DNA from: Methylovulum psychrotolerans | Lineage (GTDB): Bacteria > Pseudomonadota > Gammaproteobacteria > Methylococcales > Methylomonadaceae | Direction: 5' to 3' | Length of the DNA: 64,000 nucleotides | Assembly (NCBI RefSeq): GCF_002923755.1 | Contig: NZ_PGFZ01000010.1 | Location: 44,326-108,325, forward strand | Part shown: positions 4,064 to 61,895 of the stretch, in pieces | How positions within the stretch are numbered: the stretch's first letter is position 1 | Layout of the letters: each line of letters starts with the position of its first letter | Made by a program: the position numbers and the translations under genes | Notes under the pieces: generated by a model | The model's database searches: none | Seen by the model: only the letters and a program-made list of their open reading frames with translations | What the model was told of the DNA's origin: nothing

Positions 4064-5824
4064 ATGCCTACCCGCCAACGCCAACAGCCGATCAACTCCC
4101 ACAGGCTCTTCAGATAATAACGGTACCACGGCATAGCGATGGGCATGTTGATGCGCAACCGCGTCGATTTCGCGCACTTCATTCATAGCACGTTGACGCA
4201 ATAACGGCGATGCCACGGTCGTGGCAGCGATACTGTTATTGATCACCCACGCCCAAGGCTCAATACCGGCACGGCGCAAGTCGTTTTGCAGATTAGCCGC
4301 TTCCAGCACAGGGGTCGTTTCGGCCAATGTGACGATCAGCACCTTGGTTTGCTGAGGGTCTTGTAGTTGCATCATCGGCGTTGAAAACGGCACACTGCCG
4401 TCCATCTGCCGGGCGACTTCCCGATGATAAGCCCCTGTTGCGTCAAGCAGCAACAAAGTATGCCCAGTTGGGGCGGTATCCATCACGACAAACTGCTTAC
4501 CTGCCGCGCGGATAATCCGCGAAAACGCCTGAAACACGGCGATTTCTTCGGTACAAGGCGAACGCAAATCCTCTTCCAGCATAGCGCGGCCTTGCGCGTC
4601 CAGCTTAGCGCCTTTGGTCGCCAAAATCTGTTGGCGATAACGTTCCGTTTCGGCGTGAGGGTCGATACGGCTGACGGTCAGATGGGCTAACGCCCCATCC
4701 AGCGTTTCACCCAAATGCGCAGCAGGGTCAGAGGTGGTCAGATGCACAGGCAAGCCGCGTTGCGCCAAATTAACTGCCACTGCCGCCGCTATTGTCGTCT
4801 TACCTACCCCGCCTTTGCCCATCAACATGATAAGGCCGTGACCGCCCAAGGCGATTTCAGCAACCAGACCAGAAAGGCTAGGCTGCGTAAACGCCATAAC
4901 TGGCGCAACCGCCATCGGCACTGACGCAGGCGCGTCAACTAACAGCTGCCGCAAAGCCTCCAGCCCCACCAGATTAAAGGCCTTAAGCAATACCTCGTCA
5001 CGCGGCAAAGCCCGCAACACCTCCGGGATGCCCTGTAGCGCCGCCTGCTCACGCGTATGGATAGCCAACGCCAAGGAATCATTGCCTATTGCGCTGGCAG
5101 GCAAGAGCGCGTTAATCAGCAAATATTGGTTCTGAAAGCCAATAGCCGCCAATTCCTCATGCGTACGCGCCACCTCGCGCAAGGCCGAGTGCTGGGCGCG
5201 GGCCACTAAAATCAGCCGGGTGCGGGCCGCATCAGCAAGACAGGCAACCGCCGCCTTATACTGGTCGCGTTGCTTTTCCAAACCCGCCAAGGGGCCAAGA
5301 CAAGAAGCGTCGCCCTTACCTTCTTCAAGAAAGCCAGTCCAAGCACCCGGCAATTGCAACAAGCGGATGGTGTGTCCGGTCGGGGCCGTATCGAACACGA
5401 TGTGATCGTAACCGCTGGTTAAGGCCGGATCAGTCAATAAGGCGGTGAACTCGTCAAAGGCGGCAATCTCCGTCGTGCAAGCACCCGACAGCTGTTCCTC
5501 AATGCCTTTGACCACCGCTTCCGGCAACAGACCGCGCACTGGCCCGACAATACGGTCACGGTAAGCTTGGGCAGCGGCTTGCGGATCAATTTCTAATGCC
5601 GCCAAGCGGGGCACGGCAGGGATGGCGGTAATCTGATTACCGATAGTGATGCCGAAGACTTGGCCGACATTGGATGCAGGGTCAGTGCTGACCAGCAAAA
5701 CCTGTCGCCCGGCATCGGCTAATTGTATGGCCGTGGCACACGCCACCGAGGTTTTACCCACACCGCCCTTGCCGGTAAAAAACAAAAAACGTGGTGCTTG
5801 GTCAAGAAACCTTAATGCGGACAT
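4061..5824 (-). CDS. arsA: Arsenite-transporting ATPase ArsA
   Basis: This soluble ATPase drives arsenite/antimonite extrusion by the membrane protein ArsB. It has the two tandem halves typical of ArsA, each with a deviant Walker A (GKGGVGKT near residue 20, and again in the second half) and a DTAPTGHT signature (twice). Cys in SGACTTEIAAF and RSPCTEEIAVF match metalloid-binding positions. At 587 residues it has the normal length. The start at 5824 gives the usual opening just before the first P-loop and has GAGG upstream; a longer open frame would run into the repeat element. It is the last gene of arsR-arsC-arsD-arsA. A 284-bp repeat separates it from arsD, and another copy ends at its stop codon. 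No arsB or acr3 follows in this window. Confidence 0.93.
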   Translation of the reverse strand: MSALRFLDQAPRFLFFTGKGGVGKTSVACATAIQLADAGRQVLLVSTDPASNVGQVFGITIGNQITAIPAVPRLAALEIDPQAAAQAYRDRIVGPVRGLLPEAVVKGIEEQLSGACTTEIAAFDEFTALLTDPALTSGYDHIVFDTAPTGHTIRLLQLPGAWTGFLEEGKGDASCLGPLAGLEKQRDQYKAAVACLADAARTRLILVARAQHSALREVARTHEELAAIGFQNQYLLINALLPASAIGNDSLALAIHTREQAALQGIPEVLRALPRDEVLLKAFNLVGLEALRQLLVDAPASVPMAVAPVMAFTQPSLSGLVAEIALGGHGLIMLMGKGGVGKTTIAAAVAVNLAQRGLPVHLTTSDPAAHLGETLDGALAHLTVSRIDPHAETERYRQQILATKGAKLDAQGRAMLEEDLRSPCTEEIAVFQAFSRIIRAAGKQFVVMDTAPTGHTLLLLDATGAYHREVARQMDGSVPFSTPMMQLQDPQQTKVLIVTLAETTPVLEAANLQNDLRRAGIEPWAWVINNSIAATTVASPLLRQRAMNEVREIDAVAHQHAHRYAVVPLLSEEPVGVDRLLALAGRH

Positions 5825-5837
5825 GAGAAACCTCAGG

Positions 5838-6121
5838 TAAGGAACGTGCATGAAATAAAATTTGTTGAACAGACAAAAGTACGACAACTTCCTCCCAGCC
5901 TGCCCTTTGGCAGGGGGAGGGGCATTTTTCCCCTGATTTTCGCCTGTACGACGGGGAAGCCATAAGCTCCCTCCCCTGCCAAGGGCGACTGCACGGATGC
6001 ACACCCTCAGGGGTGTAAAGGAGGTAGAGCAACGCAAGGAGCGGTTGCCGAGAGGGCTGGGGTGGGGTTTAATACGCAGAGGTGCAATGGAACGCCGACT
6101 TGATTTTATGCACGTTCCTTA
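5838..6121 (+). repeat. MITE-like inverted-repeat element, full copy 2
   Basis: The ends are inverted repeats: TAAGGAACGTGCAT starts at 5838, and its complement ATGCACGTTCCTTA ends at 6121. The interior holds GC-rich hairpins (for example around 5893-5922) and no convincing gene. Copies at 3926-4063 and 56258-56387 share the ends. It fills the gap between arsD and arsA, and its right end forms the stop codon of arsD (TTA at 6119-6121, minus strand). Possible TA duplications flank it, which would suggest movement by an IS630/mariner-type transposase. Confidence 0.75.
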
Positions 6122-6475
6122 GCAACAGCTACTGCCACTACAACAAGCGGATACCGGTTTTTCGGTTGTTTCGGCAATGGCCGCCCAACGCGCCAATTCA
6201 TCGCGGTTAGGGTAACGCCCCGCCAAAGCCACCTCACCGTCTACTAAAACCAATGGCAATGCATCAGCACCTGAACGCTCCAGAAAGGCCTTTACGACAG
6301 CATTGTCAGCAAAAGCCATCGGTTGCTGAGCCAGGTTGAAGCGCTCAAGGTTTGCGCCATTTTGCTTTGCCCAATCCACATCGGCAGAAAAACCCACTAA
6401 CTGTTGATCGACTTCCACACCGCACACACCCGTACTGCAACACAAGGCGGGGTCAAAAATTTGAATGCTTGCCAT
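6119..6475 (-). CDS. arsD: Arsenite metallochaperone ArsD
   Basis: ArsD hands arsenite to ArsA and raises its affinity. The 118-residue protein has the thioredoxin-like ArsD form with the vicinal pair Cys12-Cys13 and Cys18 (CCSTGVCG), the essential metalloid site of the family. A second cluster sits at the C-terminus (ACCSGSSCC), resembling the extra vicinal cysteines of plasmid R773 ArsD. It lies 18 bp after arsC. The final stop codon is contributed by the inverted-repeat element, so the original tail may have been slightly different. The family call is strong. Confidence 0.93.
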   Translation of the reverse strand: MASIQIFDPALCCSTGVCGVEVDQQLVGFSADVDWAKQNGANLERFNLAQQPMAFADNAVVKAFLERSGADALPLVLVDGEVALAGRYPNRDELARWAAIAETTEKPVSACCSGSSCC

Positions 6476-6493
6476 GATTAAATTCCTTAAACG

Positions 6494-6973
6494 TTAGGGT
6501 AACAGATTGCCAAGACGATCCAGTTCCGCTTTTAAGCGTTCGCGGGCGTCCTTTAATTCATCCAGCGGTAAAGCCAGAAATTGTTCAATGCGATGCCGCA
6601 AAATACGGTAAGCCGTCATAAACGCCGCTTTGATTTCCTCTTCAGTACCTTCGGCATGGGCGGGGTCTTCAACCCCCCAATGACTGCGTAAAGCGCCGCC
6701 CAAATACACCGGACAGGTTTCGTTAGCCGCATTGCCGCACACGCTCAGCACAATATCCGGTGTCAACGGCAGATCATTCCAAGATTTGCTGTAATAGCCC
6801 TCGGTAGAAATGCCTTCCTGCTCAAGCAAAGCCACCGCGCCGCTGTTTAACCGACCCAACGGCTTGCTGCCCGCACTGATGGCCCGCCACCCTTCCGGGG
6901 CAAGATGATTGAAAATGGCTTCACCCATCAGAGAACGGCAAGAATTGCCAGTACATAAAAATAAAACATTCAT
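6494..6973 (-). CDS. arsC: Arsenate reductase, thioredoxin-coupled type
   Basis: It reduces arsenate to arsenite, which the rest of the operon then handles. The phosphatase loop CTGNSCRS (Cys7, Cys12, Arg13) is that of low-molecular-weight tyrosine phosphatases. Cys79 and Cys87 in VCGNAANETC match the Cys82/Cys89 relay of the thioredoxin-coupled ArsC, in contrast to the glutaredoxin-type enzyme of E. coli. The protein has 159 residues. ATG at 6973 is chosen over an in-frame TTG two codons upstream. It is the second gene of the ars operon, 33 bp after arsR. Confidence 0.92.
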   Translation of the reverse strand: MNVLFLCTGNSCRSLMGEAIFNHLAPEGWRAISAGSKPLGRLNSGAVALLEQEGISTEGYYSKSWNDLPLTPDIVLSVCGNAANETCPVYLGGALRSHWGVEDPAHAEGTEEEIKAAFMTAYRILRHRIEQFLALPLDELKDARERLKAELDRLGNLLP

Positions 6974-7006
6974 AATCAATAAGATGTATTAATGAAAAAT
7001 AAAAAA

Positions 7007-7345
7007 TTAATCGCTATCACAGCAAGGGGATGCCTTATCGGCATCAAAACAGTGTTCCGGGCTACCCGCACAACACTCGGCAGTCAAATAGCCGATCAAT
7101 GCCTGCATAACGGCAAGGTTCGCCCGATAACGCTGGTAGCGTCCCTCTTGGGTGACGTTAAGTAAACCGGCATACGTCATCGCCTTGAGATGAAAGGACA
7201 GATTCGTGGGCGGTAACGCCAATAACGTGGCAATTTCACCCGCCACCAGCCCGGTGGGCGCCTGTTTTACCAGCAGCCGAAAAATATCCAGCCGAATGCC
7301 GGATGCTAGTGATTCAAAAAGTGTGGTGGCAAGTTGTTTATCCAT
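7007..7345 (-). CDS. arsR: Arsenical-resistance repressor ArsR
   Basis: This is an ArsR/SmtB-type winged-helix repressor that leaves DNA when arsenite binds. The DNA-reading segment is PPTNLSFHLKAMTYAGLL. The usual E. coli metal site (ELCVC in the recognition helix) is absent. Instead there is a C-terminal pair plus a third cysteine (Cys91, Cys92, Cys99 in ECCAGSPEHC) and a further CC near the end. This resembles the Acidithiobacillus ArsR with C-terminal As(III) site. It heads the operon and overlaps its own candidate operator at the start. Confidence 0.92.
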   Translation of the reverse strand: MDKQLATTLFESLASGIRLDIFRLLVKQAPTGLVAGEIATLLALPPTNLSFHLKAMTYAGLLNVTQEGRYQRYRANLAVMQALIGYLTAECCAGSPEHCFDADKASPCCDSD

Positions 7346-7347
7346 CC

Positions 7348-7371
7348 TTCAATTATACAATAATAGTTGAA
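7348..7371 (-). promoter_or_regulatory. Candidate ArsR operator
   Basis: This is an imperfect 24-bp dyad whose arms TTCAATTAT and the complement of TTCAACTAT match at 8 of 9 positions. It sits directly upstream of the arsR start codon in AT-rich DNA, the expected place for autoregulation. Binding is inferred from position and symmetry. Confidence 0.5.
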
Positions 7372-7624
7372 ATATAAAAATTATAAAATGGCTTATTGTA
7401 AAAGTTGTCTGCCCAATGTGCATGTGCTTATTGGCGAGCCAAACGATTGCCTTTTGGATAGGAGTGCGTACAGGGAGTTGAGTTCCCCCCCTTTTGGCAA
7501 TAAGCACAAAACATGACGCGCCTGCCTCTACAGATAAACCGTAGATAGCATTCCGCAATTGACTGTCCAGCCTTTTGCCGACAAGATGCTACAATAACCG
7601 TTTTTTCATCGCCCTCCTCCCCCT

Positions 7625-9415
7625 GTGCAAACTAAACCGGACAAGCCCGTTGACCTTTGGAAGCCCATTAAACAAATCGCCCTTGAGCATAAAAAAGCCC
7701 TGGTTTACTCGCACCTGATCGCGGTCTTAGCCACCGTCGCCAGCGTTCCCGTACCGTTGCTGATGCCCTTGCTGGTCGATGAAGTCTTGCTGCATAAACC
7801 GGGCATTGTCATGGCCACTATTGACTTGGTCGCCCTGCCGGAATGGCGGCAACCGATTTTGTATATCGGCGTGGTGCTGTTTATCAGCGTTCTGCTACGC
7901 TTATTCTCCATCCTGTTCAACATCATCCAGTTGCGGCAATTTTCGATGGTATCGAAAGACATCGTGTTCCGGCTGCGCAAAGGCCTGCTTGACCGCTTGC
8001 GGACGATTTCAATGGCCGAATATGAAAGCCTAGGCACGGGTACAGTGGTCACGCATCTGGTCACCGACTTGGACACGCTGGATAATTTTATCGGCAACAC
8101 CATCAGCAAACTGTTGATTGCGGTACTGACCATCATCGGCACAGCGGTGATTTTGCTCTGGATGCACTGGCAACTGGGCTTATTTATCTTATTGCTCAAT
8201 CCGGTGGTGATTTATTTCACCCGCGTAGTCGGGGCAAACGTCAAACACCTAAAAGCTAAAGAAAACTCTGCATACGAAATTTTCCAACAAGCCCTGACCG
8301 AAACCTTGGAGGCCATCCACCAGATCCGCGCCAGCAACCGCGAACAATACTATTGCCAAGAACTGATTACCGCCGCCCGTTCAGTCAAAGACAACGCCAT
8401 CGCTTACGCGTGGAAAAGCGATGCCGCCAACCGCCTCAGTTTTCTGATATTTTTGTTCGGCTTCGATGTATTCCGCGCCGGTGCCATGCTCATGGTGTTC
8501 TATTCCGACTTGACCATGGGACAAATGCTCGCGGTGTTCGGCTATTTATGGTTCATGATGGCGCCGGTACAAGAAGTTTTAAACATCCAATACGGCTACT
8601 TTGCCGCCAAAGCCGCCCTGCTCCGCATCAATCGCCTGAATGCCCTGCAACAAGAGCCGCAATACCCGCATCTGCATAACCCTTTCCAAGGCCAAAAAAC
8701 CGTCGCGGTGCGCGTCGATAACCTGCATTTCAGCTACGGCGAAGACAGTATCCTCAACGGCATAAACCTGCACATCAAAGCGGGCGAAAAAGTCGCCTTA
8801 GTCGGAGCCAGCGGCGGCGGCAAATCGACCCTGATCCAAATCCTGATTGGCCTGTATCCCTGCGCCCCGCAGCGCATTTATTTTAATGATATACCCATTG
8901 AACAGATCGGTTTGGATATCGTCAGAGAAAATGTCGTCACCGTTTTGCAACATCCTGTATTATTTAACGACACCATCCGCGCCAACCTGACCCTCGGTAA
9001 ACCGGCCCCTGATGACGTGCTATGGCACGCCTTAGAAATCGCCCAACTGGGCGAAGTGATAAAAGACTTGGACAAAGGTTTGGATACCGTCGTTGGCCGC
9101 CACGGTATGCGCCTGTCCGGCGGACAACGCCAGCGCATGGCCATTGCCCGCATGGTGGTCGCCGACCCCAAAGTCGTCATCCTTGATGAAGCGACCTCGG
9201 CCTTGGACAGCGAAACGGAGCATAATCTGCACCAGGCTCTGGCGACATTTTTAACAGGCCGCACCACGCTCATCATCGCCCATCGGCTCAGTGCCGTCAA
9301 ACAAGCCGACCACGTTTATGTGTTCGAGCAAGGCAGCATTTGCGAGCAAGGGCGGCACGAAACCTTAATCCAACAAAATGGCCTTTATGCCAAGCTATAC
9401 GGCGAGTACCAATAA
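7625..9415 (+). CDS. ABC-type exporter, fused membrane and ATPase domains
   Basis: This is a half-transporter that would act as a homodimer in the inner membrane. An N-terminal six-helix membrane domain covers about residues 25-325. The ATPase follows with Walker A GASGGGKST, signature LSGGQRQR, Walker B VVILDEATSALD and the H-loop IIAHR. The length of 596 residues is typical for the MsbA/MdlB exporter class. Substrate cannot be told; the group includes lipid and multidrug exporters. GTG at 7625 is the only reasonable start, because no Met occurs until the first membrane helix region, and no clear ribosome site precedes it. A PHP phosphoesterase gene starts 2 bp after its stop. Confidence 0.88.
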   Translation: MQTKPDKPVDLWKPIKQIALEHKKALVYSHLIAVLATVASVPVPLLMPLLVDEVLLHKPGIVMATIDLVALPEWRQPILYIGVVLFISVLLRLFSILFNIIQLRQFSMVSKDIVFRLRKGLLDRLRTISMAEYESLGTGTVVTHLVTDLDTLDNFIGNTISKLLIAVLTIIGTAVILLWMHWQLGLFILLLNPVVIYFTRVVGANVKHLKAKENSAYEIFQQALTETLEAIHQIRASNREQYYCQELITAARSVKDNAIAYAWKSDAANRLSFLIFLFGFDVFRAGAMLMVFYSDLTMGQMLAVFGYLWFMMAPVQEVLNIQYGYFAAKAALLRINRLNALQQEPQYPHLHNPFQGQKTVAVRVDNLHFSYGEDSILNGINLHIKAGEKVALVGASGGGKSTLIQILIGLYPCAPQRIYFNDIPIEQIGLDIVRENVVTVLQHPVLFNDTIRANLTLGKPAPDDVLWHALEIAQLGEVIKDLDKGLDTVVGRHGMRLSGGQRQRMAIARMVVADPKVVILDEATSALDSETEHNLHQALATFLTGRTTLIIAHRLSAVKQADHVYVFEQGSICEQGRHETLIQQNGLYAKLYGEYQ

Positions 9416-9417
9416 CC

Positions 9418-10269
9418 ATGCCCGAACCTGACCCAAGCAAACCGCAAATTTACGACCTGCACTGCCATTCCACCGCCTCAGACGGGGCTTTGTCGCCCAC
9501 CGCCGTGGTGCAGCGTGCCTATGAACGTGGCGTAACCGATCTGGCTCTGACCGACCACGACACCACTGCCGGACTGGCCGAGGCGGAACGTTGCGCCGCC
9601 ACCGCCGGCATAACCCTGATCCCCGGCATAGAACTGTCCGCACAATGGCGGCACCAATGCTTCCATATTGTCGGCCTAGGCATTAACTCTGCCTACCCGC
9701 CCCTAGCCGATGCCACGCAACGGTTACAAAACACCCGCATGGACAGGGCGGAACGGATTGCCGACAAACTGGAAAAAAAACGCATCCCCGGTGCCTTAGC
9801 CGCAGTCATGGCGGCAGCGGGTGACGGCATGATCACGCGTAGCCATTTTGCCGACTTTCTGGTCGCCGGACACCATGTTAACAGCCAACAGGAAGCTTTT
9901 GACCGCTATCTGGCCAAAGGCAAACCCGCCTACGTCTCGACCGCGTGGGCAGAATTGGTGGAAGCGGTCGGCTGGATTACCCAATCCGGCGGCGTGGCGG
10001 TGCTGGCGCACCCCCTGCGTTACAAACTCAGCGCCAACCAAATGCGCCTCTTACTGACTGCGTTTAAAGACGCGGGCGGACAAGGCATAGAGGTCGTTAC
10101 CGGACGCACCAACCCCGACGAAATCAGCCGGGTCTGCCAATACGCCAAAAACTTTGGCCTGAGCGGCTCGATGGGTTCCGACTTTCACGGGCCCGACCAA
10201 TGGGTGGAACTCGGTCGCCTTATGGCCCTGCCGCCGCAAATCCAACCCGTTTGGCAATTACTTAACTAA
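9418..10269 (+). CDS. rnm: PHP-domain phosphoesterase (RNase AM / YciV type)
   Basis: This is a metal-dependent phosphoesterase of the PHP superfamily. Relatives such as E. coli YciV (RNase AM) trim 5' ends of RNA and split 3',5'-nucleoside bisphosphates. Visible metal ligands are DLHCHST near the start, LTDHDT around residue 46, PGIEL, the AHPLRY segment and SDFHG near the end. The protein has 283 residues, the normal length. ATG at 9418 is chosen because it lies 2 bp after the ABC exporter stop and starts directly before the first motif. The symbol is by family resemblance only. Confidence 0.82.
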   Translation: MPEPDPSKPQIYDLHCHSTASDGALSPTAVVQRAYERGVTDLALTDHDTTAGLAEAERCAATAGITLIPGIELSAQWRHQCFHIVGLGINSAYPPLADATQRLQNTRMDRAERIADKLEKKRIPGALAAVMAAAGDGMITRSHFADFLVAGHHVNSQQEAFDRYLAKGKPAYVSTAWAELVEAVGWITQSGGVAVLAHPLRYKLSANQMRLLLTAFKDAGGQGIEVVTGRTNPDEISRVCQYAKNFGLSGSMGSDFHGPDQWVELGRLMALPPQIQPVWQLLN

Positions 10270-10390
10270 CCGCACAGCGGGTAAAAAACTTACCCGCCGC
10301 CGCAATTCACTTTTGCGCACATCGCCAATAGTATCGCCTCCCCTATTGAGTTAAAATATCCCCATTCAACCCACTAAAGAAGTCAAGATT

Positions 10391-11341
10391 ATGCAAATCG
10401 TACTCGCAAACCCCCGTGGATTCTGTGCCGGTGTAGACCGCGCCATCGAAATCGTCGACCAAGCCATAGAAGCGTTCGGCGCCCCCATCTATGTCCGTCA
10501 TGAAGTCGTGCATAACCGTACCGTCGTTGACGGCCTGAAAGAAAAAGGCGCGATTTTTATCGAAGACCTGACCGACGTACCCGTCGGCTCTTACCTTATC
10601 TTCAGTGCCCACGGCGTTTCCAAACAAGTACAGCAAGAAGCCAAAGAGCGCAACCTGACCATTTTTGATGCCACCTGCCCCCTAGTCACCAAAGTGCATC
10701 TGCAAGTCGCCAAACACGCCAAATCCGACCGCGAAGTGATCCTGATCGGCCACGCCGGCCACCCCGAAGTGGAAGGCACCATGGGCCAATACGAAAAATG
10801 CACGGAAAACGGCGGCATTTATCTGGTCGAAACCCCCGAAGACGTCGCCAAACTGCACGTCAACAACCCCGACAACCTGGCCTACGTCACCCAGACCACC
10901 CTGTCCATGACCGATACCCAAATCATGGTCGATGCCCTCCGCGCCCGGTTTAGCTCCATCCAAGACCAGAAAAAAGACGATATTTGCTACGCCACCCAAA
11001 ACCGTCAAGACGCGGTGTATGAGCTGGCAAAAACCGCCGGCACCATCTTAGTGGTCGGCTCGCCGAACAGTTCCAACTCCAACCGCCTGCGCGAAATCGC
11101 CGAACAGCTCGGCAAACCCGCCTACCTGATCGATACCGCCAAGGACATGCAGCAAGAGTGGTTTACCAACATTGATGTCGTCGGCGTAACCGCCGGCGCC
11201 TCCGCCCCCGAAGTCTTAGTACAAGAAGTGATTAACCAACTGAAACAATGGGGCGGCCAATCGACTATTGAAATCCAAGGCATTGAAGAAAAAGTCGTCT
11301 TCTCCCTGCCCAAAGGCCTAAGAAAAGCCAGTGTCGCCTGA
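10391..11341 (+). CDS. ispH: 4-hydroxy-3-methylbut-2-enyl diphosphate reductase
   Basis: IspH carries out the last step of the MEP isoprenoid pathway, reducing HMBPP to IPP and DMAPP with an iron-sulfur cluster. The three cluster cysteines are visible: Cys12 in NPRGFCAGV, one in FDATCPLV and one in [11 protein letters not shown]. Other family motifs are [15 protein letters not shown], [11 protein letters not shown] and [13 protein letters not shown]. The length of 316 residues is normal. The start is at ATG 10391. The next gene, hslR, overlaps its end by 11 bp, so the two are probably translated together. Confidence 0.97.
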
Positions 11342-11729
11342 ACTGGAGTCCCTCCGCCTAGATAAATGGCTGTGGGCGGCGCGTTTTTTTAAGACCCGTG
11401 CCGATGCCGCCGAAGCCATCAACGGCGGCAAAGTCCACGTCAACAAACAACGCGCTAAGCCAGGTAAAGACATTAAAGTCGGTGCACAACTGAGCATCAG
11501 CAAAGACCGCTACCGCTGGGAGATCACCGTCACCGCCCTCAGCGGCCAACGCCGCGCCGCCAAAGACGCGGCGCTGCTCTACGAAGAATCCCCGGAAAGC
11601 CACGCCCAACGCCAACTGCAAATCATCCAACAGCGCGAACAACGGGAATTTTTAGCCATCAACGGCATAGACCACAAGCCCAATAAAAAAGAACGCCGCT
11701 TGATCCATCGGTTTAAAGATGGGCAATAA
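11331..11729 (+). CDS. hslR: Heat shock protein 15 (ribosome recycling, S4 domain)
   Basis: Hsp15 binds free 50S subunits that still carry a blocked nascent chain. The N-terminal S4 RNA-binding domain is clear ([20 protein letters not shown], then INGGKVHVN). A basic tail ([14 protein letters not shown]) ends the 132-residue protein, as in E. coli Hsp15. The start is GTG at 11331, inside the end of ispH. No terminator is obvious before the CRISPR leader. Confidence 0.92.
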
Positions 11730-12066
11730 CGCCCATCACCTTACCGCGTTTCCGGTACAGAAAAGCTCCCCTCGCGATCAATATGAGCGGCATCAAACGG
11801 AGCGCAAAGGTCTTTAGCCTTTGGACGATAACCTAAAGCCAACGCATTAACATTCCGCTTACCCCCTGTAGCTTACCCATAACCATAACAGACCAGCCCC
11901 TATTTTTACCCCCTAAGCCTGCACCCCCAAAATTTAGGAATAAATTTAAAGCCCAAATTTACTTAATAATAATCAATAACTTATAGTAGCATCAAAAAAC
12001 ATTGGTTTTTCTTGCCAAAATCCCCGTAAAGCCTATATACTCTAGCCTCTGAAGCATCTAACTCCA
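11730..12066 (+). promoter_or_regulatory. AT-rich CRISPR leader region
   Basis: No gene is seen. The last 130 or so bases before the first repeat are AT-rich with short A and T runs. In type I-F arrays the leader lies upstream of the repeat in this orientation, so transcription is expected to run rightward from here. The first part, next to hslR, holds nothing I can name. Confidence 0.5.
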
Positions 12067-12694
12067 GTTAACCGCCGCACAGGCGGCTTAGAAAAAAAGT
12101 TAAAATCAAAACTGATGTTCCCCATTGTTAACCGCCGCACAGGCGGCTTAGAAAGATTATTGTCGCTAATAATGATTAACGAGCCAGTTAACCGCCGCAC
12201 AGGCGGCTTAGAAATCTTATGAGTTGGGCTATCACGCTTGGGGTACGTTAACCGCCGCACAGGCGGCTTAGAAACACCCGCCGCCTGCGCCAGCGCATCG
12301 CTGATAGTTAACCGCCGCACAGGCGGCTTAGAAAAGCCCTCGAAACCGAAACCGACCCTTTTTTGCGTTAACCGCCGCACAGGCGGCTTAGAAAATGCTT
12401 CGCGCCATGTTAGCCATGACAGGCATGTTAACCGCCGCACAGGCGGCTTAGAAAATGTTGAAGGCCTTGATTGATTGCTTGGTGTTGTTAACCGCCGCAC
12501 AGGCGGCTTAGAAATTTTCCGGTTTTTGAAAATACAAAAACTTAATGTTAACCGCCGCACAGGCGGCTTAGAAAAATAGTCGAAGAGCGCGATCAGCTTT
12601 CGCAGTGTTAACCGCCGCACAGGCGGCTTAGAAATTTACATTATAAGAACTTCTGTTTGTTGTAATGTTAACCGCCGCACAGGCGGCTTAGAAA
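12067..12694 (+). CRISPR. CRISPR array, 11 repeats and 10 spacers, type I-F-like
   Basis: Eleven identical 28-bp repeats begin at 12067 and recur every 60 bp, the last at 12667. All ten spacers are exactly 32 bases and are all different. Each repeat starts GTTAACCGCC, has a 5-bp stem (CCGCC/GGCGG) around the loop GCACA, and ends TTAGAAA. Stem size, loop size and the 28/32 geometry are those of type I-F (Csy) arrays. No cas gene lies within the window on either side. Confidence 0.97.
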
Positions 12695-56445: not shown

Positions 56446-57702
56446 CTATGGGCTGACCTTAAATACCGTGCCAAAACCGTATTGGCCTCCTGAGTTGGTT
56501 GCCCCATAGAGATTACCTAAGGCATCCCGCACCAGTCCGGCAAAAGGAGATTTCCCGTTGGTACCGTCAAAATCAACCAGGGTCGCTAATGTCCACGCCG
56601 TTTGTCCGGTCACGGGCGGCGACAGCTTGAAAACAGTACCAAAATCGTCGTCAGCACCGCCGATAAAGGCTGTGCCATAAAGGTTGCCGGATGCATCCCT
56701 CAGCAGCGGCGCAAAGGGGTAGTGGCCGCTGGTCGCGGTAAAATCGGCCAGTGTGGTCAGCCTCCAGGTGGTTTTGCCCGGCAAGGGCGGCGACAGTTTG
56801 AACACCGTGCCTAAGCCGTTTGCCCCACCACGGGTGGTTGTGCCATAGAGGTGGCCGACTTTATCGGCCACCAATCCGGCAACCGGGAAATTCCCGTGTG
56901 TGCCGTCAAAATCAACCAGCGTGGTCAGCACCCATTCGCTCTGTCCGACCGCAGGCGGCGACAGCCGGAACACCGTGCCGTCATCGTCAACGCCGCCCCA
57001 CCAAGTTGTCCCGTACAGGTTGCCGGACGCGTCCATAATCAACCCACCAAACGGCAGGGTGCCGTTGGTGCCATTAAAGTTGACCAACGTACTCAGTGTC
57101 CAGCCTTTTTTTCCGGCGGCAGGCGGCGCTAGCCTGAACACGCTGCCGCCATGGCCTGCCCCACCATCAAATGTTGTACCGTAGAGGTTGCCGGACTTAT
57201 CCCTCAGCAAGCGGGCGGAAGATAAGGGGGCCTGTGTACTGTCAAAGTTGAACAGTGTAGTCCGCGTCCATTTGGTTTGCCCGACCGCAGGCGGGGCTAG
57301 CCGGAATATCGTGCCTACGCCGTTGGTGCCACCGCTGACGGTGACAGCGTACCAATTGCCGTCTTGGCCTTGCAGCAAAGGGCCTGGCTGATAACCGTCA
57401 CTAGGGCTGTTAAATTTGCTGAGCCGCGTTAACGTCCACGCGGTGTATTCGGGTGCTGGCGGCGACAGTTTGAGCACCGAGCCGGCATAGCCTAGGCCTT
57501 TTGCCGTCCCGTACAAACTGCCCGCCCCGTCCAATACCCATGTAGAATCAGGATAGGCACCGTTGTTGCCGTCAAAATCAAGCAGGGTGGTGAGTTGGGC
57601 AGCCTGCGCCCAATTTGGCAAGACCACGGCCATCAATAAGGGAACAGCGGCCAGTTTGCAACAGGCCCGCAACGTCGACAAGATATTCTTCTTTTTTTGC
57701 AT
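56446..57702 (-). CDS. Secreted GloVer-type tandem-repeat protein
   Basis: This 418-residue exported protein has a signal peptide ending near residue 35 (NWAQA, then AQLTT). Seven tandem units of about 52 residues follow. Each starts with a TLxDF-type strand, contains GNLYGTTxxGG, and ends GTVFKLSPP. This is the pattern named choice-of-anchor tandem repeat GloVer, predicted to form a beta-propeller-like surface protein. No anchor is visible at the C-terminus. GGGGAAATAT before ATG 57702 decides the start. Function is unknown. Confidence 0.82.
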   Translation of the reverse strand: MQKKKNILSTLRACCKLAAVPLLMAVVLPNWAQAAQLTTLLDFDGNNGAYPDSTWVLDGAGSLYGTAKGLGYAGSVLKLSPPAPEYTAWTLTRLSKFNSPSDGYQPGPLLQGQDGNWYAVTVSGGTNGVGTIFRLAPPAVGQTKWTRTTLFNFDSTQAPLSSARLLRDKSGNLYGTTFDGGAGHGGSVFRLAPPAAGKKGWTLSTLVNFNGTNGTLPFGGLIMDASGNLYGTTWWGGVDDDGTVFRLSPPAVGQSEWVLTTLVDFDGTHGNFPVAGLVADKVGHLYGTTTRGGANGLGTVFKLSPPLPGKTTWRLTTLADFTATSGHYPFAPLLRDASGNLYGTAFIGGADDDFGTVFKLSPPVTGQTAWTLATLVDFDGTNGKSPFAGLVRDALGNLYGATNSGGQYGFGTVFKVSP

Positions 57703-57870: not shown

Positions 57871-59916
57871 TCATAACTCTTCCTCAACAAGCCAACGCCC
57901 CAATACAGGGATATTCAGTTGGCCTTGCCCATCAATTAGCAGCCGCCGTTCCAGCCAACGGCGGGTACGCGAATCGGGAGCCGTGGTTTCACCCAGCGCC
58001 AGCATCTGCAAAGCCTCACGGGCGGATTCGGGGGCGGTGCCGTACAAATGGCGGAAATAATAGGCGCTTTGCTCCAATGCGCGGCACTCCACCGCTTCCA
58101 GATCAGCCAGCTCAGCGGTGCGGCACTGGGTTTCATTAAGGCGGCTGACCAAAAGACTACCGTACAACTGCACCAGATCGGGCTGGCCACCTGTACGCTG
58201 ATAGATACTTTCGGCCACGCCTAAGGGGATGGCCTCGGCGGGAAATACCGGAATGGGGCGGGTCAAAAGCCCTACCGTTGTCTGCCTATCCAAATGCCCG
58301 ATAGCTATTTCGCGGACATTAATGAAATGGTCGCTCCATAACTCTCCCCATTCCTCAAAGGGTGCGGCACCGGAAACCAGCAGCCGCACCCGCCGCTTGT
58401 GCTGGATGGTGGCTCGCAGCAAGCCCATGAATTGCAAGAGTTCCCGCTGCTCGCCGGGGAACAGGTCTTCCAGGCGTTCAAATTCGTCGATGCAAAGCAA
58501 TAAGCGCCGTTCACCGACAGCTGTTTCCAGTGCGTCCAGCCAGTCTTTGGCGGTCTCGAAAGGGGCCGTCAATAGGCGTTCCCGGTCTAAGGCAGGCAAT
58601 TCCAGTTGCCGGTCACGCCGGGCTTGGATACGGATCTGCCGATCCATGGCTCCGAACAACGCCGACAGACTATCTACGGGATTATCTTGAAGGTCGAACA
58701 ATACCACTACCGCATCCGGCAACATCGACGGCAGCATTTTAAGCAACGAGGTCTTGCCGCAACGGCGCGGCCCTAAAAGCGCCAAAGACGCGGCATTCCC
58801 GGCATCGGCCAGCAGCTCATCCACCCGCCGTACCAGATTTTCCCGCCCCCGAAAAACCTCCCGCCCCGTTTCCGGCTCCAGGGGATTCCCGGAGCGGAAG
58901 GGATTGGGCAATTGCTGTTCGGCGGCTTGTTCCGCCTCCCGCCGCAAAGCGGCCAGGGCGGTATGCCAAGCTGGCAGGATAGGCCGCAGTTCGCGGGCTA
59001 AAAAGGAGGAGGTATTGAGCAACTGGTTTTCCAGCGACTTAAAGGCCTTTTCTCCCCGTTCCAGATGGCCTAAACGGTGATAGGCGATCTTGGATTGCTG
59101 TGCCGCTTGGAGATAACGGGCCATTTCGGCCAAACCCGACAGCAGGGGGTCTGCACCCTCTACCCCCGGCAACCAATCCCCCTGAAGTTCCGCCGCCTCG
59201 GCAAAGCGGCTGGTGTGGGCATATTGGGCCAGTTCCCGCGCTTGCAAGCGGGCTAAAGCGATGCGGCCAAGCCGCTGCTGACCCGGCGCGATGGCGCAGG
59301 CATCAAGTGCCCGACGTGCCAAGGACGGGTCGGTTTCTGCTGTGAGTGTTATATGGCTGGCTAAGAAAGGCAAGGGAAAATAAATTAGCTCATGGTGCAG
59401 CACCGGAGACCAATTTAGGGTAGGCCGACCAGTGAAACGCTGGATGAAATACGAGAGGGATGCAGCCTGAATCTCCATAAGATAAAACGGCAACCGGATA
59501 TAAGCCACTCCCCAAGCCACTCCAAAAGCCACGCCCCCAGCCACGCCCAAAGCCACGCCCAAAGCCACGCCCCCAGCCACGCCCAAAGCCACGCCCAAAA
59601 CCACGCCCAAAGCCACGGCCAAAGCCACGCTCAAAGCCACGCCCAAGTAATCCACTACGAACCCGTAGGATTGGAGTGCCAAAACCAATGCGCCAGTTAA
59701 CAGTGGTATAGCCGTCACAAGCAATACAAACATCCGTAAGACAAAAGCCCGCCCCACCCCACCCCGCCGCCAAAGCCGCCAAGCGAATGCACCAGGCTCA
59801 TCAATCCCCAAAGCACGCAAACGCCTATGCAAGGTCACTGGCTGCATGAACAGCAGCCAGAGTAGTTCCCAATAGCCTGGTAAAGATACCTTCGGCTGTG
59901 TGCTGGCAATTTTCAT
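57871..59916 (-). CDS. Membrane-anchored STAND-like ATPase
   Basis: This protein of 681 residues has no specific family name that I know. An amphipathic N-terminus leads to hydrophobic helices (about residues 57-80), then 48 residues of V-A-L-G-type tetrapeptides (about 90-137) encoded by a 12-bp minisatellite. A helical region (about 140-340) follows. The ATPase part has Walker A GPRRCGKT (382-389) and Walker B LLLCIDEFERLEDLF. A winged-helix-like C-terminus ends RWLVEEEL. The overall form is of the AAA_16/STAND class used as switches in signalling and defence. The start at 59916 overlaps the preceding stop as ATGA. It is the second gene of a two-gene unit. Confidence 0.78.
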   Translation of the reverse strand: MKIASTQPKVSLPGYWELLWLLFMQPVTLHRRLRALGIDEPGAFAWRLWRRGGVGRAFVLRMFVLLVTAIPLLTGALVLALQSYGFVVDYLGVALSVALAVALGVVLGVALGVAGGVALGVALGVAGGVAFGVAWGVAYIRLPFYLMEIQAASLSYFIQRFTGRPTLNWSPVLHHELIYFPLPFLASHITLTAETDPSLARRALDACAIAPGQQRLGRIALARLQARELAQYAHTSRFAEAAELQGDWLPGVEGADPLLSGLAEMARYLQAAQQSKIAYHRLGHLERGEKAFKSLENQLLNTSSFLARELRPILPAWHTALAALRREAEQAAEQQLPNPFRSGNPLEPETGREVFRGRENLVRRVDELLADAGNAASLALLGPRRCGKTSLLKMLPSMLPDAVVVLFDLQDNPVDSLSALFGAMDRQIRIQARRDRQLELPALDRERLLTAPFETAKDWLDALETAVGERRLLLCIDEFERLEDLFPGEQRELLQFMGLLRATIQHKRRVRLLVSGAAPFEEWGELWSDHFINVREIAIGHLDRQTTVGLLTRPIPVFPAEAIPLGVAESIYQRTGGQPDLVQLYGSLLVSRLNETQCRTAELADLEAVECRALEQSAYYFRHLYGTAPESAREALQMLALGETTAPDSRTRRWLERRLLIDGQGQLNIPVLGRWLVEEEL
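59504..59647 (-). repeat. 12-bp minisatellite inside the membrane ATPase gene
   Basis: Twelve units of exactly 12 bp follow one another, with consensus GCCACGCCCAAA on the plus strand. Most units differ by one to three bases; some carry CCA at the end. They keep the reading frame and encode repeated four-residue units such as GVAL and GVAG in the hydrophobic segment. Confidence 0.95.
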
Positions 59917-61895
59917 GCTTCGTCCTCTTCTTCCAACCATTGCCGCAAAACCTCACCGAATAACCGACCGTTCTCGTCCTGTAAGCCCCGCAGTCGAAAG
60001 GTGCTGTTAGTGGCCGAAAATCCGCCGGTTGCAACATTCCGCAAGGCTTGCTTATCCTTGTTGCGTAAGGTTTTCCAGAGCTGGCGCAGGCGGGGGTAGG
60101 CATTTGATCGGGCTTGGTCTACCGCCCATTCGCGGGATTTGCCGTGGCGGCGGGCTTCGGCCAAGCGATAGCCCAGAAGTTGCAAAAAATAGGGATGGCG
60201 GCCAGCCCAGCGGCGCATCAGCGCTTGGTCTTCCCCGTCCAGCTTACCCTCACCGCGCCGCACCAATTGCTCGGCGGCGGCGGGTTCGAGCAGGCCTAGC
60301 CATTCGATGCGCAGTTTATTGTCAAAGGGCGAGCCACGCCCCAGCTGTTCGAACACCAAGTCAATAGGCTGATGGGTGGCCAGCACCAAGCACAACCTAT
60401 CCAAAAGCCCCCGGAGCCGCTCAAAGAAACGGTATTCAAACTTGCGCAGGAAGATTTCCGCTTCATCCAGCAACAGCACAGGCGGCAGGCCGGGCAGGCC
60501 AACACGGTCGACCCAAGCCGCCAGCCGGTCGGCGGCAGGGTCCGCGCAGTCAGCACAGGCTTTGCCAGTAATAGCGGCTACAAAAGCAGACAGCGAAGCC
60601 GCTTCCGGCCCTTCACCACGGAGCAGAACCACTGTCCGGGCCATGATGCGGGCTTTTTGTTCGAAGTTTTTCAGCACCGACATTTTGCCGATACATCGGT
60701 CACCGACCAAGGACACACTGGAACCCTCTTCCAAAGCTTGAATCAGGCTATCCATTAAGGCCACCCGACCCACGAAATTAGGCGGAAGGGCCGGACGATT
60801 GAAATCATAGGGATTGGAGCTAGGGTCAATGCGGGCTATGGCTTGGGCTAATGGCCACAACAGCCGCCCTTGATGGCTTTGCTTGTAGCGGCTGTCATCG
60901 TCGTGCCAATGGCCTCGCTCTGACCAAGCACGGAACCAAGGTTCAACACTGATGGGCCGCCCTTGCCCATCAAGTTGTAAGGTGATGAGTTGGCAACCGT
61001 TAGGATAGTGGTCTGCGTGGTGGCCTTCGTACAAACAGCCAGCCGCCAATTCCACCAGCCCCCGGTCGGGGTCGTCACTGCGTTCAAGAACGGCGTTGTG
61101 CAAATGGCCGCGTAACAACAAGTCGGCATGTTCGGCTAACAGATTTTTGGCGGCTGCGTGATCGGCCAGATCCCAAAGCGGATGATGGCAGAGGACAAGG
61201 CGCAAACCAGGGAATTTGTTGCCTTCCTTGTCGGTGGCATGAAGCATGATTTGGTCATCGGTGAGCCAAAGTTTTTGGGCATCGTGGTCGTCCCCAGCCA
61301 GCCAAGCGGTATCCAAACCCGTAATATGTATCGGAAAGGGCAAGCCCGGAAAGTCCGGGCAGACGTGATAACCCACCCGTCCGTGGTCATGACGCTCCGG
61401 CAACAAGGCTTCCCTCCCCAGTTCCGTAAGCCATTGGCGATAAGCGGCCTGCCGTGCCAACACCGGTTCAAGCCAACCCGTATCCGCACCGGGCGGCGGT
61501 TTACCGCTGCCTCTCAGCCAACGCGATAACGTCAGGCCATCCATTTGGCTGAATGTTTCGCGCAGTTTTTGCCATTCCGCCAGATGGAGGCCTCGGTCAA
61601 TGTCGTGGTTGCCGGGCACAAGGAAAAACCGCTCAGGTGGCAGGGACAGCTTTTTCAATACGGCGTGGAAGAATGCAGTGGCGGCGGCATATTCCCCCGG
61701 CTTACCCCAATCCGCCGCATCGCCAGTAAAACACACCAAATCAATAGGGCCGGCAGCGGTGACGGCTTCCAGATTATGTTCCCAGGTTGCCCCCAAAACC
61801 CGCTGCCGCCGCCAAGATTCCGTCTCGCGCGGGCCGCGTTCGTGCAAGTCGGAGATATGTAGGATGCGTAGCGTGTAGTTTTTTTCGTGTGCCAT
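59913..61895 (-). CDS. Metallophosphoesterase-ATPase fusion protein
   Basis: This 660-residue protein couples two domains. Residues 1-320 are a calcineurin-like phosphoesterase: Asp16-x-His18 (SDLHERG), Asp59/Asp62 (TGDAADWG), Asn96-His97-Asp98 (GNHD), CHHPLW near 237 and GHLH at 263-266 are the full metal set. Residues 370-660 are a STAND-like ATPase: Walker A GDRCIGKMS at 398-406, where Met405 replaces the Mg-binding Ser/Thr, and Walker B PVLLLDEAE. A winged-helix-like end follows (GRLFGEVLRQWLEEEDEA), related to that of the next gene. GGGGAG precedes ATG 61895. The stop overlaps the next start by 4 bp (ATGA). Confidence 0.82.
   Translation of the reverse strand: MAHEKNYTLRILHISDLHERGPRETESWRRQRVLGATWEHNLEAVTAAGPIDLVCFTGDAADWGKPGEYAAATAFFHAVLKKLSLPPERFFLVPGNHDIDRGLHLAEWQKLRETFSQMDGLTLSRWLRGSGKPPPGADTGWLEPVLARQAAYRQWLTELGREALLPERHDHGRVGYHVCPDFPGLPFPIHITGLDTAWLAGDDHDAQKLWLTDDQIMLHATDKEGNKFPGLRLVLCHHPLWDLADHAAAKNLLAEHADLLLRGHLHNAVLERSDDPDRGLVELAAGCLYEGHHADHYPNGCQLITLQLDGQGRPISVEPWFRAWSERGHWHDDDSRYKQSHQGRLLWPLAQAIARIDPSSNPYDFNRPALPPNFVGRVALMDSLIQALEEGSSVSLVGDRCIGKMSVLKNFEQKARIMARTVVLLRGEGPEAASLSAFVAAITGKACADCADPAADRLAAWVDRVGLPGLPPVLLLDEAEIFLRKFEYRFFERLRGLLDRLCLVLATHQPIDLVFEQLGRGSPFDNKLRIEWLGLLEPAAAEQLVRRGEGKLDGEDQALMRRWAGRHPYFLQLLGYRLAEARRHGKSREWAVDQARSNAYPRLRQLWKTLRNKDKQALRNVATGGFSATNSTFRLRGLQDENGRLFGEVLRQWLEEEDEA

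Follow-up and report, generated by a model that had tools for sequence, protein, structure and literature searches.

Bacterial conflict systems keep an NTPase core constant and exchange the toxic or signalling domains attached to it, and calcineurin-type phosphoesterases are named among their domains in the available parts of two papers (Kaur et al.; PMC7159879, PMC8195603). The nearest published concept to the locus described here is the nSTAND2 operon, a predicted two-gene counter-invader system (Kaur et al. 2021, PMC8195603, available in part). The nearest metallophosphoesterase (MPE) that has been tested is that of the anti-phage system DS-8 (DefensePredictor, PMC13092281; NCBIfam NF053861), for which the accessible text reports that mutants of the MPE catalytic site and of the NACHT domain lose phage protection. 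Here we explore a two-gene module of Methylovulum psychrotolerans, found on the minus strand of a stretch of 64,000 nucleotides (hereafter the window, to which all coordinates without a locus name refer). Gene A (59913-61895, minus) encodes 660 aa with a calcineurin-like MPE and a STAND-type ATPase, as assigned from its open reading frame (ORF), Pfam and full-length homologs, and gene B (57871-59916, minus) encodes 681 aa that represent a membrane-anchored STAND ATPase of the nSTAND1 type, as assigned from its ORF and Pfam. Comparison with related loci makes it fairly probable that the pair is a STAND switch built from two genes, in which the effector can be exchanged, and that it acts as an immune-type membrane switch. 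This role is favoured because the N-terminal domains of the partner ATPases are exchanged, because the MPEs of A and DS-8 are homologous and because one relative of the module that lacks the MPE lies beside a Septu system.

Architecture and kinship of genes A and B

The complete MPE version of the pair was found at three loci, and B follows A in all three. Besides the window these are an uncultured Methylococcaceae metagenome-assembled genome (MAG; G033, with L021 and L047 on one contig), with 69% identity for A and 71% for B, and a Nitrococcus MAG (L048), with 49% for A, which is cut by the contig start, and 53% for B. The two genes overlap in the window and in L048 and are separated by 430 bp in G033. 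In-frame insertions that contain HPNPPP-type repeats interrupt the G033 copy of B (L021:313-2925), at one point within its ATPase domain and at another close to the C-terminus.

Residues 9-267 of A match Pfam Metallophos (6.7e-13), and the MPE domain, defined by this match and by the DS-8 model (residues 13-311), covers approximately residues 9-325 (60921-61871, minus), its end being an estimate. The residues D16/H18, G58-D59, G95-N96-H97-D98, H237-H238 and G263-H264-x-H266, which we take to be the metal-binding motifs, are all intact; they are invariant across the alignment of the three A sequences, save D16, which lies beyond the reach of truncated L048. The ATPase and C-terminus of A (residues 360-657; 59925-60818, minus) were delimited by hhalign to B and to small partner ATPases, and residues 374-523 give a weak AAA_16 match of 24.4 bits, under the cut-off of 32.6.

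B exceeds the Pfam cut-offs of nSTAND1 (PF20703; 35.6 bits versus 27.1) and AAA_22 (30.8 bits versus 27), and nSTAND1 is matched by all three B homologs at E<=0.1. Two hydrophobic stretches, residues 52-84 and 86-140 in a Kyte-Doolittle window, make up its membrane region (59497-59763, minus). The second stretch is encoded by a 12-bp tandem repeat (59502-59646, minus; 12.1 copies) that codes for GVAx tetrapeptides. Since the two homologs have 24.2 and 25.7 copies, tandem duplication seems to alter the length of the membrane region of B. The ATPase and C-terminal region (residues 337-679; 57880-58908, minus) shows an intact Walker A, GPRRCGKT. The stop codon of A overlaps the start codon of B in a 4-bp ATGA (59913-59916, minus), read from the sequence, and a ribosome-binding-site-like GGAAGAAGAGGA for B lies within the 3' end of A (59923-59934, minus), 6 bases ahead of the B ATG. 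An alternative in-frame ATG at 59940, 24 bases upstream, would extend B from the 681 aa counted from the ATGA start to 689 aa.

An hhalign comparison of profiles that had just three rows each aligns A 360-657 to B 337-679 (probability 97.7, E 1.4e-12). A preliminary description of this DNA had proposed a calcineurin-like phosphoesterase fused to a STAND-like ATPase, coupled by an ATGA overlap to a second, membrane-anchored ATPase, with similar C-terminal ends that suggested paralogous modules. All of this stands: the ATPase of A is recognised by profile comparison, and the C-terminal resemblance is the end of a homology that runs over the whole domain, from the ATPase through the C-terminus. 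The ATPase of A is nearer still to small stand-alone ATPases encoded upstream of other B-like genes (hhalign E 7e-19), and B aligns with the corresponding B-like proteins over almost its entire length, membrane repeats included (E 7.9e-84). A is therefore best read, from these alignments, as the usual small partner ATPase plus an N-terminal MPE. Pfam nSTAND1 did not match A, yet the partners of L122 and L130 and one in L055 exceed its cut-off; nSTAND2 (PF20702) and NACHT matched neither A nor B at E<=1.

Among the 29 pairs compared below, GxxxxGK[ST] is present in every B protein and in 20 of the A-type partners. It is missing in eight partners, and the remaining one is window A, with GDRCIGKM (60681-60704, minus), which has Met where Ser or Thr is usual after GK. 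Given that the motif is kept in all B proteins and not in all partners, B is the constant and apparently active ATPase, and the ATPase activity of the partner may be expendable. With Met in place of the Walker A Ser/Thr, window A might bind ATP yet be poor at hydrolysing it. This residue, which is Thr or Ser in both MPE homologs, is also what would suggest a degenerating copy, with a window pair that no longer works. We consider such decay very improbable: both frames are open, the MPE motifs are intact and operons persist with the eight partners that are wholly without a Walker A. In addition, pN/pS versus the G033 copy, at synonymous sites near saturation, is 0.19/0.70 for A and 0.19/0.65 for B (ratio approximately 0.27-0.29), and both genes look to be under purifying selection.

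Occurrence, co-inheritance and exchange of the N-terminal domain

Used as a single query, A had no homologs in the contig collection; a two-row alignment of A then yielded two loci. The MPE version is sporadic, since within the order of the window full-length A was found in its own genome and in one of 250 others, the remaining matches being partial and over the MPE. In a phylum-wide sample of 398 genomes the A-type ATPase profile matched solely the window's own genome, and the B profile matched this genome and three others (L054, L055 and L056), each with a partner ATPase upstream. The L054 module is followed on the opposite strand by a nucleotidyltransferase-like and HEPN-like gene pair (8755-9578; named by eye). 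In a class sample of 321 genomes B was matched in six, the window's own included. Ten class-level regions comprise four with a partner (L040-L043), four with none (L036-L039), a broken one (L044) and one, L045, that has a weak match within another type of protein.

Another order of the same class, that of genome G431, has B-like genes in 40 of 42 genomes, with up to nine matches per genome. From these matches 36 regions (L120-L155) were chosen, not at random, as the 16 best-scoring plus 20 others, L140 repeating L038. They contain 37 B-like genes, two of which lack upstream sequence, and 35 were scored. Of the 35, 25 have a same-strand partner ATPase upstream, directly (<=400 bases) in 23 cases and with genes in between in two (L120 and L133). 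The rest are one broken case (L134) and nine partnerless genes, one of which (L140) is the same gene as that of L038. In L120 the genes between partner and membrane ATPase are two Uma2-like nuclease genes, of which one matches Pfam Uma2 (3.9e-10), and in L133 there is a Fic-like gene, named by eye. Partner-like genes (>40 bits) among 197 non-B ORFs in 316 kb were upstream of a B-like gene in 25 of 25 cases, the regions having been cut around B. That the pair might be conserved as a unit, a check suggested in the preliminary description, is supported by the joint occurrence at all three MPE loci and by these 25 partners; the opposite outcome it had named, each gene usually alone, applies in part, to the nine partnerless genes of the 35 sampled.

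Eight of the nine partnerless genes encode 914-952 aa, and among the sampled B-like genes of 911-958 aa (n=18) ten have a partner and eight do not. The longer B-like class of the G431 order (about 910-960 aa) is thus partly partnerless and may include a resident gene of that order. As B-like genes occur in 40 of its 42 genomes and some are partnerless, part of the B-like family looks as if it may serve a resident function.

FastTree phylogenies were built from 29 of 35 partner-B pairs, with L138, L143, L145, L147, L148 and one of the two pairs in L155 omitted. The partner and B trees agree in four clades, namely an effector clade, an HTH-like (helix-turn-helix) clade, a clade of short partners and a clade of L054, L055, L056 and L124, of which three end in a C-terminal hydrophobic segment. 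The partner and B distance matrices correlate with a Mantel r of 0.897 (0/5000 permutations; 29 pairs, shared species history included). Within the effector clade r is 0.71 without the insertion-bearing L021 (0/5000 permutations) and 0.40 with it (165/5000). By this comparison of trees and distances the partner and B halves are shown to be inherited together.

Effector-clade partner ATPases are 34-67% identical to the ATPase of A in an alignment of eight, which leaves L120/L161 outside, and they carry dissimilar N-termini: the MPE in the window, L021 and L048, a SEFIR domain in L122 (PF08357, 3e-19), a TIR domain in L132 (TIR_2, 2.2e-11) and a hydrophobic segment with room for two transmembrane helices in L120/L161, L121 and L127. 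The L130 partner has no N-terminal domain and a TIR-like gene, recognised by eye, directly upstream. On a related partner lineage L163 has a trypsin-like N-terminus (2.5e-15), followed by a GVA-repeat membrane gene that is cut by the locus edge. An HTH N-terminus exceeds the Pfam cut-off in L151 (HTH_3, 2.6e-8), is weaker in L152, L141 and L041 and was recognised by eye in L146 and L150; the partners of L042 and L155, which belong to the HTH-like clade, gave no Pfam HTH match. As judged from these homologs, the N-terminal domain of A is interchangeable while the membrane ATPase stays, which is a hallmark of conflict systems. A different arrangement is seen in a genome of the same genus (G122, L025:5034-8372), where two TIR-like genes whose TIR-like domains weakly match ThsB models precede a B-like ATPase without the membrane part.

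Genomic setting and proposed role

Neighbouring genes of the modules were judged by eye, with one PADLOC test on relatives. Those of the window pair, judged by eye, look like housekeeping genes, and the defence-island or prophage setting that the preliminary description had considered was not found for the window pair. Septu genes do adjoin a relative of the module that lacks the MPE (L040:3489-5547; PtuA 8e-104, PtuB 2.6e-41). An ABC gene that flanks the window pair is present in 19 of 20 genomes of the genus, the own genome included. In the regions around it in ten relatives the other flanking genes, A and B are all unmatched; gene order has therefore changed, and no clean empty-site junction can be named. 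Directly downstream of B lies a gene for a repetitive, secreted-looking protein (56446-57702) with a Tachylectin match (3.3e-15), and a gene of this type was not seen near the ABC gene in the ten relatives' regions. Farther away the window contains a CRISPR-like array (12067-12694) with 11 copies of the 28-bp repeat GTTAACCGCCGCACAGGCGGCTTAGAAA at an exact 60-bp spacing, which we take to resemble type I-F repeats.

Several results weigh against an immune-type switch. To the housekeeping-looking neighbours are added the searches of mobile elements: phage records queried with A gave no match (B was not searched there), plasmids gave no match for B or for a B relative and only partial matches, chiefly over the MPE, to A in three records, and three alignments found no relative in viral contigs, a search that starts from short exact peptide patterns and may miss distant ones. 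The B-like genes of L036, L037 and L039 are partnerless, as are the nine of the sampled 35, and the near-ubiquity of B-like genes in the G431 order fits the view that some of the family has a resident role. The lower correlation of the effector clade when L021 is included, as well as the substituted Walker A residue of A, point in the same direction. The structure models of A and B are of low confidence (mean predicted local distance difference test, pLDDT, of 59 and 57), and the best fold matches of the B model, plant NLR resistosomes, have TM-scores of 0.10-0.15. Finally, HTH-like partners are also compatible with transcriptional regulation.

This last point leads to a host regulatory or stress-signalling membrane pair outside immunity, in which B senses the state of the envelope and the partner binds DNA through the HTH or hydrolyses a cyclic nucleotide through the MPE. 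HTH-like N-termini on several partners, the abundance of B-like genes in one order with some partnerless, and the neighbours of the window pair would suit it. So would the resemblance of the low-confidence MPE model to Rv0805; its other PDB matches are purple acid phosphatase, Mre11 and CD73, and those of the likewise low-confidence ATPase model are 2qen, ORC/Cdc6 and TnsC/MuB. We regard a regulatory pair as unlikely nonetheless, given that homologous partners carry SEFIR, TIR and trypsin-like domains, as conflict systems typically do, that the MPE version is sporadic and that L042 and L155 gave no HTH match in the very clade of the HTH partners. The immunity-type role raised in the preliminary description becomes likelier through N-terminal swapping and through MPE homology to anti-phage DS-8; a defence-island or prophage setting of the window is not supported.

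If the pair is an immune-type switch, translational coupling would hold the A and B proteins in step. B, as the presumed sensor, would bind ATP and, at the membrane, react to an invader or damage. A would dock on B through the related ATPase domain, giving a mixed oligomer, and clustering or release of its N-terminal domain would switch the phosphoesterase on. The active enzyme would then cleave nucleic acid, nucleotides or a cyclic nucleotide signal, with arrest of the infected cell as the outcome. The docking, the trigger and the substrate are what we infer.

A bolder proposal, offered tentatively and by analogy with plant sensor-helper NLR pairs, is that B with its length-variable GVAx repeat domain may be the sensor hub of an undescribed immune family. 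Attack would be sensed at the membrane, and the effector of the cognate ATPase, be it a phosphoesterase, TIR, SEFIR, protease, membrane segment or DNA-binding domain, would be fired. Should the immune-type switch be real, bacterial immunity gains a membrane-bound, modular dual-STAND family, and one switch with several N-terminal domains offers a comparative set in which the switch can be studied apart from the effector. It would also help in finding what the metallophosphoesterases of DS-8-like systems cut, and the sensor-helper arrangement of two NLR-like proteins would become testable in bacteria.

Comparison with described systems

No description of this gene pair was found in the literature searched, which mostly lacks subscription papers and bioRxiv's own holdings; the term nSTAND2 occurs there in Kaur 2021 (PMC8195603) and otherwise in one unrelated chemistry paper. 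A shares its MPE N-terminus with PADLOC PDC-S60 (8.9e-21), and the best stretch, residues 9-118, covers 108 of 1027 model positions. Avs proteins have a long C-terminal repeat sensor after the ATPase. Membership in Avs/AVAST was rejected, as the homologous ATPase/C-terminal region extends almost to the last residue of each protein (657 of the 660 residues of A, 679 of the 681 of B) and no Avs model was matched.

In the accessible text on DS-8 (PMC13092281) an N-terminal metallophosphatase is joined to a STAND-type ATPase, as in A. Residues 13-311 of A match NF053861 with 63.4 bits (E 9.1e-18) against a cut-off of 790 bits. As described there, DS-8 is a single protein with NACHT, whereas the window has two proteins, its ATPase is of another type and the partner sits in the membrane. 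Reading the pair as DS-8, or an Avs-like single-protein defence system, split into two genes would be in line with the homologous MPE and with the STAND-type ATPases of both A and B. We consider this reading very improbable: the DS-8 match is limited to the MPE and far below the cut-off, NACHT is not matched at E<=1, both proteins end in the ATPase/C-terminal region and leave no space for a long C-terminal sensor, and B adds a membrane domain. A split DS-8 was rejected on the bit score and on the missing NACHT match.

Calcineurin-type phosphoesterases, TIR and peptidase domains are exchangeable parts in the conflict systems of PMC7159879 too, according to its available text; unlike those systems, the window has no recognised MoxR, vWA, VMAP or GTPase gene beside the module. 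A vWA-MoxR ternary system was rejected for the window on the same ground. Elsewhere in the own genome (L046, contig C12, approximately 5704-11857) a second MPE conflict-type operon consists of an MPE protein (Pfam) and of two components recognised by eye, a MoxR-like AAA and another large protein. It resembles vWA-MoxR ternary systems, and L023 in genome G212 has the same plan.

The nSTAND2 operon, as far as the available text of PMC8195603 describes it, shares with the window two adjacent STAND NTPase genes, that of A recognised through profile comparison, and a variable effector fused to one partner. One of its proteins may have eroded NTP motifs; here A has GK-M, and the motif is missing in 8 of 29 partners and present in 20. 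Its effectors are mostly GT4 or HEPN in that text, whereas here MPE, TIR, SEFIR, trypsin-like, hydrophobic and HTH-like N-termini were found and GT4 or HEPN fusions were not seen. The same text describes the operon as mobile; the window shows a sporadic MPE version without a clean empty site, and viral, phage (for A) and plasmid records gave nothing more than the partial plasmid matches to A. The membrane-repeat ATPase is a feature of window B that the available text does not mention for the nSTAND2 operon. The window proteins have no Pfam nSTAND2 match, yet some partner relatives pass its cut-off of 24 (L054 with 28.6 bits; L164, L169 and L171 with 37-49 bits), and window-type partners and the nSTAND2 group therefore seem to grade into each other. 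The window pair itself is a full fit to neither the nSTAND2 operon nor DS-8.

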